This document shows positions 57,817 through 61,450 of a stretch of 61,450 nucleotides of DNA, in pieces. The notes under the pieces are model-generated. The model saw nothing but the letters and a program-made list of their open reading frames with translations, was not told the origin of the DNA and searched no databases. A program made the translations under genes and the position numbers. Numbering within the stretch: position 1 is the stretch's first letter; every line of letters starts with the position of its first letter. Source of the stretch: an uncultured Nitriliruptoraceae bacterium (GTDB taxonomy: Bacteria > Actinomycetota > Nitriliruptoria > Nitriliruptorales > Nitriliruptoraceae); contig CAJXTG010000007.1 of NCBI GenBank assembly GCA_913060655.1, positions 1 to 61,450 on the forward strand. The letters are read 5' to 3'.

Positions 57817-57836
57817 GCCACGCCGCACCGTTCGAG

Positions 57837-57864
57837 GGAGGCCCCCGCCACGGCGGGGGCCTCC
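57837..57864 (+). terminator. Terminator after groEL
   Basis: GGAGGCCCCCGCC/GGCGGGGGCCTCC forms a long perfect GC stem with a minimal AC centre (the innermost pairs must open). It lacks a T-run but is the clear end of the groESL unit. A TAGGCT box for the next gene follows at 57895-57900. Confidence 0.75.
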
Positions 57865-57910
57865 CCGCGTTCCGGGCCACGACGGGCCCCACCGATAGGC
57901 TCCGACGACG

Positions 57911-59518
57911 ATGAGCGACCTCCAGCGCCCGCCCGCCAGCCCGTCCGCCGGCCCGCCCGACACCCCCGGGACGGCCGCCGCGCCCCGTGCACTCCCGCCG
58001 CTGTGGGCCGTCGAGCTGCTCGACGTCCTCGGCCGGCGCGGACGCTTCGCCGTCGTCCTCGCGGCCGTCCTCAGCGCCCTCGGCCTCGTCGCCGCCCTCA
58101 CCGTCCCCGACGTCGTCGCACCCTCCGCGCTCGTCGGCGTGCTCGTCGGCCTCACCACGCTGGCCGTCGGCATCGCCCTCGCGCTCGCGCTCGACGCGCT
58201 CGACGTGCGCGTCCGCGGCCCCCGCCACGTCCGCTCCAGCGGCGGAGAGCTCGTCGCGCTGCTGCCGGAGGACGCCGCCGCCCGTGACGCGTCCGACCTC
58301 GCCGCCGCCGTCCGCGCGGTGCACCCCGCCGGCTCGACCCTGCACCTCGGGGTCGCCCCCGTCGGCGAGGACCTCACCTCCGCGGGCGCGTGGGCGCGAG
58401 CGCTCGCCGAGGCGCTCGCCGACGCCGGCTCGTCCGTGCTGCTCGTCGACGTCGCCACCGGCACGACCGGCGGCCGCGGCATCCTCGAGGTCGTCCGCGA
58501 CCGCGTCCCCCTCGCCGACGTCGTCACCTACGCCGACGGACGCACCCTCGCCGTCGCCGGCCCGGGCGCCGACCGCGCCCAGGCGCTGCAGGCGCTCGTC
58601 ACCCTGCCGACCGTGCTGCCCGCCGACGTCGACGTGCTGCTCGTCGCCCTGCCGCCCGTCGTCACCCGCACCGCCGTGAACGCGTCGCGCGTGCTCGACC
58701 AGGTGCTGTTCGTCGCCGAGGCGAACCTCACCTCCCGCGTCGAGCTGATGGCGTCGCTCGACGCGCTGCGTGTCGCCGGCTGCGCCCCGCAGGTCATCCT
58801 CGTCGACGAGGGCACCTACCGGGTGTTCCGCCCCGGCACCGACGGCCCGGCCCGCTCCTCGACACGGATCGACCCGGTGCCGCTCGGTGGCGCCACACCG
58901 CCCGCCGCCGTCACCCCGACGCCGGTCGCCGCCCCCGTCGACCCCGCACCACCGGCCGTGCCGGCGCCTGCAGCGGAGCCGGAGCCTGCACCGGAGCCGG
59001 CGCCCGCACCGGAGCCGGAGCCCGCACCGGCGGCTGCACCCGCGCCTGAGCCTGAACCCGAGCCCGGCCCTGCACCGGAGCCGGCGCCGGAGCCGACGTC
59101 GCCGCCGCGCATGGCGGGGGAGCCGTCCTCACCGCTGCGCACCGTCGACGTGCTCGAGGCCGCCGCACGCGAGCAGGCCCAGACGACGCTGGACGCCGCC
59201 TCCGTCGACACCGTCCCGCTGCAGCGCGACGAGGTCGTCACCGGACCGCCGCCCGAGCCGCAGCCGGCACCGGAGCCCGAGCCGGAGCCCGAGCCGGAGC
59301 CTGCGCCCGAGCCGGCGCAGGCCTCAGCTCCGGCACCGGAGCCCGCGCCCGAGCCGCCGCCGGCTCCGGCGGGCCACGACGACCGCACGACCGAGCTGAC
59401 CGTCGACCCCGGTCCGACGCCCGCATGGGCCTCCGTCGAGGACGAGGAGGACCTGCTGCGGACCACCGTGCAGATGAGCGCGTTCAGCGAGGAGCTCGAG
59501 CTCCGCGATGAGGACTGA
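57911..59518 (+). CDS. Membrane protein with degenerate BY-kinase/ParA-like domain and PE-rich tail
   Basis: 535 residues. Two transmembrane helices (about 46-64 and 72-95) precede a domain (110-310) that aligns by eye with CpsD/Wzc tyrosine kinases: LHLGVAPVGEDLTSAGAWARALAEALADAGSSVLLVD. The glycine-lysine-serine of a real P-loop is missing, so ATP binding is doubtful. DVLLVALPPVV could match Walker B. Residues ~330-500 are Glu/Pro/Ala repeats, then an acidic end. It may regulate polysaccharide assembly, given ugd two genes on. The function is not established. Confidence 0.65.
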   Translation: MSDLQRPPASPSAGPPDTPGTAAAPRALPPLWAVELLDVLGRRGRFAVVLAAVLSALGLVAALTVPDVVAPSALVGVLVGLTTLAVGIALALALDALDVRVRGPRHVRSSGGELVALLPEDAAARDASDLAAAVRAVHPAGSTLHLGVAPVGEDLTSAGAWARALAEALADAGSSVLLVDVATGTTGGRGILEVVRDRVPLADVVTYADGRTLAVAGPGADRAQALQALVTLPTVLPADVDVLLVALPPVVTRTAVNASRVLDQVLFVAEANLTSRVELMASLDALRVAGCAPQVILVDEGTYRVFRPGTDGPARSSTRIDPVPLGGATPPAAVTPTPVAAPVDPAPPAVPAPAAEPEPAPEPAPAPEPEPAPAAAPAPEPEPEPGPAPEPAPEPTSPPRMAGEPSSPLRTVDVLEAAAREQAQTTLDAASVDTVPLQRDEVVTGPPPEPQPAPEPEPEPEPEPAPEPAQASAPAPEPAPEPPPAPAGHDDRTTELTVDPGPTPAWASVEDEEDLLRTTVQMSAFSEELELRDED

Positions 59519-60047
59519 CCGCGCGGCACGACCGTCCGCGCGGCTCACGAGGTGGGTGGCCGCGCTCCTGCTCGTGCCGCTCCTCGCCGCCTGCGGCGGG
59601 TCCGACCGGATCGAATGGCCCGGCGTCCGGCTCGACCTGCCCGAGGGGTGGGAGCTCGTCGCGCAGGAGACGGTCCGCCTCGTCCTCGCCGACCACGTCG
59701 CCGCCGAGGGGGAGCGCGGCGTCCACGTCACGTTCCTCCGCGAGCCGGGCACGCTGCCCGACGACTGGCGGCGCCGCATCGCCGACCAGGGCCTGACCCT
59801 CGAGTCGGACACGCAGGTCCTCATCGCCGGCGACGTGCCCGCCACCCAGCTGATCGTCCTCGCGAGCACCGACGGGGTGCCCGTCCGGCAGGTCATCCTC
59901 GTCGTCGCGTCCCGCGGGCTCGTCATCTCCGTCGACCCCGTCCTCGCCCCCGGCGAGCAGGACGGGCCGGAGCTGCTCCTCGAGTCCCTCGACGGTGTCC
60001 GGGCCATGCTGGACACTGTCGAACTGGCCCTGCCGGAGTTCGGATGA
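59508..60047 (+). CDS. Predicted lipoprotein
   Basis: 179 residues. A signal peptide (RLTRWVAALLLVPLLAAC) with lipobox L26-A-A-C29 predicts lipid attachment and export. The mature part starts GGSDRIEWPGVRLDLPEGWELVAQ and has a beta-rich pattern like the LpqN/PsbP-type small lipoproteins of actinobacteria; the exact family is not recognised. It overlaps the previous gene by 11 nt, suggesting coupled expression. Role unknown. Confidence 0.78.
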   Translation: MRTDRAARPSARLTRWVAALLLVPLLAACGGSDRIEWPGVRLDLPEGWELVAQETVRLVLADHVAAEGERGVHVTFLREPGTLPDDWRRRIADQGLTLESDTQVLIAGDVPATQLIVLASTDGVPVRQVILVVASRGLVISVDPVLAPGEQDGPELLLESLDGVRAMLDTVELALPEFG

Positions 60048-60115
60048 CCGCCCGCACGGGCTAGCGTCCCTGCCGGGCGCACGGCCCACGAGCGCGGCAT
60101 GGATGGGGGAGCAGC

Positions 60116-61450
60116 ATGAGGATCGCCATCGTCGGGGTCGGCCACGTCGGGCTCGTGTCCGCCGCCGCGTTCGCCCGCTGGGGCCACGACGTCGTCGGCT
60201 ACGACGACGACGCCGAGAAGGTCGCGACGCTGCAGGACGGGCGCGCCTGGTTCTACGAGCCGGGCCTGCAGGAGCTCCTCGACGAGGTCATCGCCGCCGG
60301 CCGGCTGCGCTTCACCGCCGACCCGGCCGAGGCGATCGGTGGCGTCGAGGCCGTGTTCGCCTGCGTCGGCACGCCGCCGCTCGAGGACGGCAGCCCCAAC
60401 CTCGCCTACCTCGAGGCCGTCGCCCGCACCGTCGCCGAACACTCCGACTCCGACACGCTGCTCGTCGAGAAGTCGACCGTGCCGGCGAGCACCGGCCGTC
60501 GCCTCGAGCAGGTCATCGCCCGCGAGCAGACACGCCTCGGGAAGTCGCTGCGCATCGAGGTCGCCTCCAACCCCGAGTTCCTCCGGGAGGGCACGGCCGT
60601 CGAGGACACGCTCCACCCCGACCGCATCGTCTACGGCACCTCCAGCGACTGGGCCCGTGACGTGCTGCGCCGCGTCTACCAGCCGCTCGTCGACGAGGAC
60701 GGCTGCCCCGTCGTCGAGACCGACGTCGCCACCTCCGAGGTCATCAAGCACGCGTCGAACGCGTTCCTCGCGACCCGCATCTCGTTCATCAACGCCGTCG
60801 CCCGCATCTGCGACCAGGTCGGCGCGGACGTCGAGGTCGTCGCCGACGGCATGGGCCACGACGCGCGCATCGGCCGCGGGTTCCTCTCCGCCGGGCTCGG
60901 CTACGGCGGCTCGTGCTTCCCCAAGGACGTCGACGCGTTCGCCCATCTCGCCCGTCAGGTCGGCGTGCCGTTCCGCCTCCTCGACGAGGTCCGCGCGATC
61001 AACGTCAGCCAGCGGCGCCTCATCGTCGACAAGCTGCGGCAGGAGCTGTGGCACCTCGACGGCAAGACGATCGTGCTGCTCGGTGCGGCGTTCAAGCCCG
61101 GCACCGACGACCTGCGCGAGGCGCCCGCGGTGCACCTGACCCGTGAGCTCGCCGAGGTCGGCGCCGACGTCCGCGTCTACGACCCCGTCGCGACGGCCCA
61201 GATGGAGGCGATGTTCCCCGGCCTCGCGACCTTCGACGACGTCACCCCGGCCCTCGCCGGCGCGCACGCCGCCGTCGTGTGCACCGAGTGGGAGCAGGTG
61301 CGGGCGCTCACCCCCGACGACTACCTGCGTGCGCTCGCCTACCCGATCGTCGTCGACGGTCGCAACGCGCACGATCCGGACGTGATGCTCGACGCCGGCC
61401 TGCGCTACCACTCCATCGGCCGTCGCAGCGCCGCCGGTCAGGCGGGCTGA
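60116..61450 (+). CDS. ugd: UDP-glucose 6-dehydrogenase
   Basis: 444 residues. The NAD-binding start MRIAIVGVGHVGLVSAAAFA, VFACVGTPPLEDGSPNL, EKSTVPASTG, NPEFLREGTAVEDTLHPDRIV, SNAFLATRISFIN and the catalytic Cys267 in GGSCFPKDVDAF are complete. The third domain has GAAFKPGTDDLREAPAV. It oxidises UDP-glucose to UDP-glucuronate for surface polysaccharide. The gene is complete and its stop is the last codon of the window. A TAGCGT box at 60062-60067 may be a -10. GGGGAGCAG precedes ATG 60116. Confidence 0.96.
   Translation: MRIAIVGVGHVGLVSAAAFARWGHDVVGYDDDAEKVATLQDGRAWFYEPGLQELLDEVIAAGRLRFTADPAEAIGGVEAVFACVGTPPLEDGSPNLAYLEAVARTVAEHSDSDTLLVEKSTVPASTGRRLEQVIAREQTRLGKSLRIEVASNPEFLREGTAVEDTLHPDRIVYGTSSDWARDVLRRVYQPLVDEDGCPVVETDVATSEVIKHASNAFLATRISFINAVARICDQVGADVEVVADGMGHDARIGRGFLSAGLGYGGSCFPKDVDAFAHLARQVGVPFRLLDEVRAINVSQRRLIVDKLRQELWHLDGKTIVLLGAAFKPGTDDLREAPAVHLTRELAEVGADVRVYDPVATAQMEAMFPGLATFDDVTPALAGAHAAVVCTEWEQVRALTPDDYLRALAYPIVVDGRNAHDPDVMLDAGLRYHSIGRRSAAGQAG

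Follow-up and report, generated by a model that had tools for sequence, protein, structure and literature searches.

What does a kinase-shaped protein do at the membrane once its catalytic motifs are gone? The question is raised by the end of a 61,450-nucleotide stretch of DNA (the window; contig CAJXTG010000007.1, forward strand) from an uncultured Nitriliruptoraceae bacterium, where the gene for a 535-residue protein, here called COP, overlaps a lipoprotein gene, LIPO, and is followed by ugd. An earlier note, made from the letters alone, had compared COP with polysaccharide co-polymerases (PCP) and bacterial tyrosine kinases (BY-kinases) and had proposed that the three genes are a surface-polysaccharide control module of a new form. 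We think it on balance probable that COP is a PCP-2a-type protein that lacks the outer domain and the catalytic motifs and acts as a non-phosphorylating scaffold at a glycan exporter. The three genes are:

57911-59518, plus strand: COP, an open reading frame (ORF) of 535 aa for a membrane-anchored BY pseudokinase, recognised from the ORF, its homologues, fold and profile
59508-60047, plus strand: LIPO, 179 aa, with the lipobox LLAAC, its cysteine at Cys29, and a Mog1/PsbP/LpqN-like fold
60116-61450, plus strand: UGD, 444 aa, a nucleotide-sugar dehydrogenase of the UDP-glucose 6-dehydrogenase type

The 11-nt overlap of the COP stop with the start of the exported lipoprotein gene, with ugd beyond, was confirmed on these coordinates, and the same 11-nt overlap is seen in a genus-mate locus (L061). 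LIPO ends 68 nt before the start of ugd, and the contig terminates at the ugd stop codon. UGD scored over the cut-off for TIGR03026, PF03721, PF00984 and PF03720; no Pfam or NCBIfam family was over cut-off for COP or LIPO.

Fold, catalytic site and tail of COP

An AlphaFold2 model of COP (residues 20-317, built from 17 sequences; mean pLDDT 89.8, pTM 0.82) starts with a long helix, which a turn of 8 residues joins to a second one, and ends in an alpha/beta domain. The parts of the protein are:

58001-58102, plus strand: juxtamembrane segment and transmembrane (TM) helix 1, residues 31-64 (helix 12-45 in the AlphaFold2 model), aligned to the PCP-2a N terminus
58127-58201, plus strand: TM helix 2, residues 73-97 (helix 54-78 in the AlphaFold2 model), aligned to PCP-2a TM2
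58214-58828, plus strand: RGPRHV linker and pseudokinase domain, residues 102-306
58829-59515, plus strand: Glu/Pro/Ala tail, residues 307-535, without Tyr

When the PDB was searched with the model using Foldseek, the best 50 matches were all BY-kinases, and a VIA comparison gave 19 BY-kinase rows at Z 17.2-22.0. The match to Wzc (7nib_E: Z 22.0, rmsd 6.8, 273 aligned) covered the TM helices, the Wzc alignments running from the first membrane helix into the kinase domain; CapA1B1 (4jlv: Z 21.1, rmsd 2.5, 200 aligned) and BceF (6z0p: Z 20.2, rmsd 2.6, 200 aligned) were among the other rows. The first chain that was not a BY-kinase was MinD 4v03_B (Z 13.6, rmsd 4.1, 162 aligned). The PCP/BY-kinase layout claimed in the earlier note therefore held against MinD/ParA chains (Z 13.6 at most), and structure prediction found the BY-kinase fold and not another one.

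These comparisons bear on the idea that COP is a ParA/MinD-like positioning protein outside glycan assembly. ParA/MinD chains come next after the BY-kinases in the fold list, and a profile of 21 COP homologues run against PDB sequences, which placed BceF (E 7e-5) and Etk (E 0.0033) on top and then IMP dehydrogenase (E 0.033), also found MinD chains weakly (E 0.36 and 0.93). The BY-kinases, however, score clearly higher, the alignment spans the TM helices and linker, and COP is missing the Walker A motif that ParA/MinD proteins need. Such a role is very improbable, and a ParA/MinD identity was set aside on the profile and fold scores. Single-family searches said little: with the 21 aligned homologues no Pfam family matched more than two members (best E 0.0013, to BT1, for one member), and NCBIfam gave weak matches to TIGR03007 (7/21, best E 0.1) and TIGR03018 (6/21, best E 0.0027).

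The relation to co-polymerases was examined with a PCP-2a profile of five full-length actinobacterial proteins, three from the family and one each from genomes G283 and G381. By hhalign, COP columns 46-274 aligned onto PCP-2a columns 241-502 (97%, E 8.4e-11). The N-terminal COP columns 9-39 aligned onto PCP-2a columns 12-42, alone with E 1.5e-4 and a probability of 52%, and as the second hit of the whole alignment with E 0.0015 and 17%. At the level of sequence, the match is thus firm for the TM2-linker-kinase part and moderate for the N-terminal part. Taken together, the two alignments imply the loss of about 200 extracytoplasmic columns between the membrane helices, and this indicates an internal loss from a PCP-2a layout, in which TM1 and the TM2-linker-kinase part were apparently retained and the outer domain disappeared. 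A PCP-2a protein has two TM helices around an extracytoplasmic domain; COP has the helices, only about 8 residues apart, and does not qualify as one on this point. It does have the kinase-domain fold of a BY-kinase and, the catalytic motifs being absent, is properly a BY pseudokinase. The catalytic positions are:

58364-58381, plus strand: degenerate Walker A position, reading GEDLTS where a GKS/T loop would be expected (HMMER alignment to BceF)
58631-58654, plus strand: degenerate Walker B position, DVLLVALP, with Ala at the expected Asp

The absence of GKS/T remarked on in the earlier note extends to the homologues: GK[S/T] occurs at the Walker A site in 0 of 21 aligned sequences (row L058, out of register, was read from another alignment), and the wider pattern G[KR][ST] matched once, in L072, as a GRS away from that site. 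At the place of the Walker B Asp, the 25 sequences whose segment could be recognised have Ala, Ser or Thr. Of the two Asp expected in Walker A', only the first is retained; it is invariant in alignment A1 (21 members). The oligomer motif EX2RX2R, described in the available part of PMC3795738 as part of half of the octamer interface, was found in none of 27 listed ORFs, two of them chance ORFs (L085, L112). RGPRH stands directly after the second helix in most homologues, L076 and L112 being without it. As the sequences for alignments A1 and A2 and for the Walker B, tail and EX2RX2R sets were selected by RGPRH[VI], with L076 and L112 left out, the invariance of that pattern within them is built in.

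The tail is as long and as rich in Glu, Pro and Ala as had been noted, and has no tyrosine cluster: its 229 residues comprise 27% Pro, 20% Glu+Asp and 17% Ala and lack Tyr, Cys and Lys altogether, a composition from which disorder is predicted. The 21 complete tails among the homologues span 123 to 504 aa, and none has a C-terminal Tyr cluster, the number of Tyr being at most three in any of them. Two motifs were recognised in the tail:

59138-59179, plus strand: motif M1 (RTVDVLEAAAREQA), a candidate docking helix with an RDVDVLEAAA-like pattern
59444-59515, plus strand: motif M3 (EEDLLRTTVQMSAFSEELELRDED), C-terminal, with an LLRTTAQL core

The M1 pattern occurs in 10 of the 21 complete tails and in none in any of 500 composition-keeping shuffles, and the M3 core pattern in 14 of the 21 and in at most one in any of 500 such shuffles, counts made in the same tails from which the patterns were derived, many of them from related genomes. 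Because the tails otherwise vary in length and make-up, the motifs may resemble docking sites. Sequence comparison and the predicted model together establish the architecture read for COP: a membrane hairpin, a kinase-shaped domain without its catalytic motifs and a motif-bearing tail.

Spread, selection and gene order

The COP domain was found in 27 of the 35 family genomes and in the single order-level relative covered (G035), and in none of 30 other genomes of the class. The 18 named records holding COP homologues are metagenome-assembled genomes titled Nitriliruptoraceae or Actinomycetota bacterium, together with Salsipaludibacter albus; the homologue loci came in two sets of partly identical records, which are not independent. 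LIPO was found in 29 of 61 genomes, every one in the family. Two family genomes with no COP match (G023, G024) have a COP-like tail directly before LIPO at a contig end. Within the genus, three of four genomes have COP, LIPO and UGD, and the fourth (78% complete) matches none of the three. The genome with the window (G000, COP on contig C7) is 1.67 Mb at 96.6% completeness, compared with about 2.3-5.6 Mb for family genomes outside the genus, and the genus is thus a reduced one.

A phylum search, in which 396 genomes were drawn evenly, family members included, and six candidates were scored per genome, gave two weak COP matches from beyond the class, in G283 and in G381; each seems to be a complete PCP-2a protein. 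The G283 protein has Wzz, GNVR and AAA_31 over cut-off, a GKT and a Tyr-rich stretch. The G381 protein (L114:2584-4116), from another actinobacterial family, aligns with full PCP-2a proteins and has neither an aligned GK[S/T] nor a Tyr cluster; judged by its alignment, it is apparently a fused pseudokinase that retains the outer domain.

Substitution rates (dN, non-synonymous; dS, synonymous) were estimated by NG86 against one genus-mate. Values of dN 0.15 and dS 0.45 for the COP domain (ratio ~0.34), 0.30 and 0.98 for the tail (~0.30), 0.24 and 0.67 for LIPO and 0.09 and 0.51 for UGD indicate that all four are under constraint. The spread through the family and the two COP ratios rule out a chance ORF. 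That COP is a decaying remnant might be thought because it has lost its outer domain and those catalytic motifs that were tested, but the same ratios, the conserved pairing with LIPO and the retention of COP in a reduced genome speak against decay, which is hardly credible.

The neighbourhood search for the three genes recovered the arrangement widely. COP adjoins LIPO on 22 contigs in 21 genomes, with gene calls covering most of these pairs; in six other family genomes (G003, G005, G006, G009, G020, G021) COP has no LIPO on its contig, and there the COP match is cut by, or lies near, the contig end on the LIPO side. Both UGD (matches with E up to 1e-100) and LIPO are present in 23 genomes. 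In 19 of these they share a contig (21 contigs: G000, G002, G003, G004, G005, G007, G010, G014, G015, G018 (twice), G019 (twice), G020, G023, G024, G025, G027, G028, G029 and G034), always on the same strand and with UGD downstream. The gap between the matched stretches ranges from 41 nt to 13.4 kb, and nine of the 19 genomes have one shorter than 0.8 kb. In the remaining four (G006, G011, G016, G030) UGD is on a different contig, and the separation could be due to contig breaks, as the LIPO contig ends less than about 3.5 kb past LIPO.

This order lends itself to another explanation, that COP regulates UGD directly and without catalysis, binding the enzyme and setting its activity or membrane location in place of phosphorylation. 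Besides the position of ugd after LIPO in 19 of the 23 genomes, active kinases offer a parallel: according to the available parts of the two papers, Ugd of E. coli is activated when Wzc and Etk phosphorylate its Tyr71 (PMC2516531), and CapB2 phosphorylates CapO on Tyr89 (PMC3795738). Against it, 10 of the 19 genomes have 1.4 kb or more of DNA separating LIPO from ugd, and gene order by itself is no proof of contact. Direct regulation of UGD is a possibility that we hold tentatively.

The genes beyond ugd point to glycan export. (Genes at neighbouring loci were called from codon usage, with errors in some of the starts and in a few long G+C-rich calls.) In G003 no gene was called in the 1.7 kb after UGD; beyond it stand an ABC-2 permease with an ABC ATPase, then three proteins of glycosyltransferase type and a Bac_transf initiating transferase, and finally one more glycosyltransferase together with a second nucleotide-sugar dehydrogenase. 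G002 carries these exporter genes too, separated from UGD by a DUF2142 gene on the opposite strand. The first six post-UGD genes of G003 recur in G000 in the same order, from the edge of contig C42. In G005 and G027, too, ABC permease and ATPase genes occur close to COP, LIPO or UGD, as they do in G017 judged from likeness of the protein starts alone. A gene of G000 that resembles UDP-glucuronate decarboxylase has 67% identity to the gene after UGD in G004. For these neighbours, Wzm, Wzt, CsaB and UDP-glucuronate decarboxylase are names of our own reading, and the ones that were scanned carry the Pfam labels ABC2_membrane, ABC_tran and PS_pyruv_trans.

Searches for Wzz (PF02706), Wzy_C, SLH and PF04230 gave no match in any of the four genus genomes. 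The lack of PF02706 matches also leaves these genomes with no detected PCP-2 partner without a kinase domain, although a divergent PCP could escape detection. From the gene order and the lack of Wzz and Wzy_C matches, the export machine in COP's genus appears to belong to an ABC-exporter (Wzm/Wzt-like) pathway.

The same survey bears on two further explanations. COP might modulate an active BY-kinase in trans, as the available part of PMC3795738 proposes for CapB1/CapB2, and BY-kinases over the TIGR01007 cut-off do occur in 7 of the 35 family genomes. None is over that cut-off in the four genus genomes, however, which also have no Wzz match and of which three keep COP, and COP is without EX2RX2R; we regard modulation in trans as quite unlikely. 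Alternatively, COP and LIPO could be a general envelope factor for an S-layer/SLH surface, with ugd a chance neighbour. SLH proteins and CsaB-type genes do lie near COP in several larger genomes, but three of the four genus genomes, all without SLH or PF04230 matches, retain COP, LIPO and UGD. A general envelope factor is therefore unlikely, and a role in the S-layer only was set aside because the genus lacks these matches.

Proposed role and comparison with known systems

That a dead, kinase-shaped protein is kept beside LIPO and ugd in many family members suggests a scaffold rather than an enzyme. We propose that COP would be a membrane-bound scaffold on the inner side of a machine exporting surface glycans and would act without phosphorylation. 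Its kinase-shaped domain and tail motifs may hold cytosolic partners by the exporter, the candidates being UGD, the initiating sugar transferase and the exporter ATPase, and LIPO would work on the outer face. UGD is a fair candidate because active BY-kinases regulate enzymes of the Ugd type (PMC2516531 and PMC3795738, in the parts available). A precedent for scaffold action is EcpK of Myxococcus xanthus, which, according to the accessible part of PMC12004946, is important for exopolysaccharide synthesis, binds its PCP directly and is a proposed scaffold.

Several observations weigh against a scaffold at an ABC exporter. One homologue (L056) retains GDGK at the Walker A site, with Arg as the next residue. 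The order-level relative G035, outside the family, has COP and no LIPO match, and at least one gene or at least 1.4 kb separates LIPO from ugd in 10 of the 19 linked genomes. In G000 itself the exporter genes are on a different contig from COP, although the six-gene order starting at the edge of C42 makes a contig break the probable cause of the gap. Each of the four genus genomes has two TIGR01007 matches below the cut-off (best E 5.5e-11, in G000), and in the 7 of 35 family genomes with BY-kinases over it COP could act through those. Finally, the genera differ in their neighbours, SLH proteins and CsaB-type pyruvyltransferase genes being found in several larger genomes, and the glycan served may therefore differ too.

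PCP-3 (KpsE type) proteins resemble COP in having two TM helices and in being encoded with ABC glycan exporters; unlike COP, they have an extracytoplasmic domain and no kinase-shaped domain. Among kinases, Wzc, CapAB, Etk and BceF share with COP the kinase-domain fold and the linker, and Wzc also the membrane helices; COP differs from all of these in having no Walker A, Walker B Asp, Tyr cluster, EX2RX2R or outer domain.

The closest likenesses are to pseudokinases described in the available part of PMC12004946. EcpK, like COP, has a BY-kinase fold without Walker motifs or a Tyr cluster and has polysaccharide genes nearby; unlike COP, it stands alone and works in a Wzx/Wzy pathway, where the PCP is a second protein, EpsV. 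COP for its part brings a membrane hairpin and a tail in its own chain; its genus gave no Wzz match, and there an ABC exporter lies beside it. The fused PCP-2 pseudokinases (Sinorhizobium SMc01795 in the same source, and the L114 protein) resemble COP in combining a membrane part and a pseudokinase in one chain, but L114 has a large stretch between its membrane helices, compared with about 8 residues in COP.

In the literature covered, which left most subscription journals outside its scope, BY pseudokinases were found as stand-alone or fused co-polymerase types and none in an ABC-exporter pathway; nothing on COP-like proteins was found in the literature on Nitriliruptor or Nitriliruptoria. 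What is new in COP, compared with known BY pseudokinases, is the lack of an outer domain, the motif-bearing tail and the ABC-exporter setting. Of the proposed surface-polysaccharide module of a new form, the glycan setting stood, with an ABC exporter and glycosyltransferase genes beyond; the novelty had to be narrowed to that of a variant, since BY pseudokinases (EcpK, HfsB and fused types) are already in print, as seen in the available part of PMC12004946.

A fuller history is conceivable but doubtful: the lineage may have shed its co-polymerase domain, gained a disordered motif tail and moved from a Wzx/Wzy to an ABC exporter, where COP, together with LIPO, would couple UDP-glucuronate supply to export. 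Whatever its history, COP bears on whether BY-kinase domains matter through catalysis or by holding the glycan machinery together. As a conserved natural version with no active site, Tyr cluster, oligomer motif or outer domain, retained in a reduced genome that gave neither a Wzz match nor a BY-kinase over cut-off, it isolates the scaffold part. If COP serves an ABC exporter, the BY-kinase fold would extend to another class of pathway, one in which, to our knowledge, it was not expected.

LIPO and other features of the locus

A model of LIPO (pLDDT 86.7) has a Mog1/PsbP-like fold. It matched PA94 1tu1 (Z 12.0, rmsd 3.4, 117 aligned), LpqN 6e5d (Z 10.6, rmsd 3.1, 129 aligned) and PsbP 2xb3 (Z 10.4, rmsd 3.6, 130 aligned), and is thus alike in fold to the LpqN/PsbP/DcrB/Mog1-fold proteins; unlike them, it has no Pfam family over cut-off. 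A LIPO profile found no relative among PDB sequences, and no family was assigned to the LIPO relatives either. The lipobox Cys is also present in these relatives, and LIPO combines a lipobox with the Mog1/PsbP fold.

Upstream, 94 nt separate the end of groEL from the start of COP and contain one further feature:

57835-57866, plus strand: strong, G+C-rich RNA hairpin between groEL and COP, without a T run after it

Neither a sigma-70 promoter nor a U-tract terminator turned up in a scan for them. The hairpin has an energy of -40.9 kcal/mol over 57817-57880 (z -3.1) and, lying 3' of groEL, is possibly a groESL terminator.

Elsewhere in the family, SLH matches occur in 24 of 35 genomes, with up to 105 in one genome and zero in the four of the genus. 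In locus L054 (11419-17447), genes for an SLH-domain amidase, an SLH-SpoIID protein and an SLH-subtilase are near COP-LIPO. Five genomes (G007:C87, G010:C1, G015:C151, G018:C154, G025:C1) have CsaB-type genes (PF04230) no more than 20 kb from COP or LIPO, which suggests that the wall polymer for their SLH proteins is pyruvylated.

A protein of about 215-304 aa (cluster c4) is encoded just upstream of COP in eight loci (L042, L046, L048, L049, L050, L053, L054, L055), with a short gene intervening in three; none was seen upstream of COP in COP's genus, and the one member scanned had no Pfam match. In L057 and L058, which represent two lineages, HEAT-repeat and HD-domain proteins (clusters c36 and c37, scanned in L058) are encoded between COP/LIPO and UGD.

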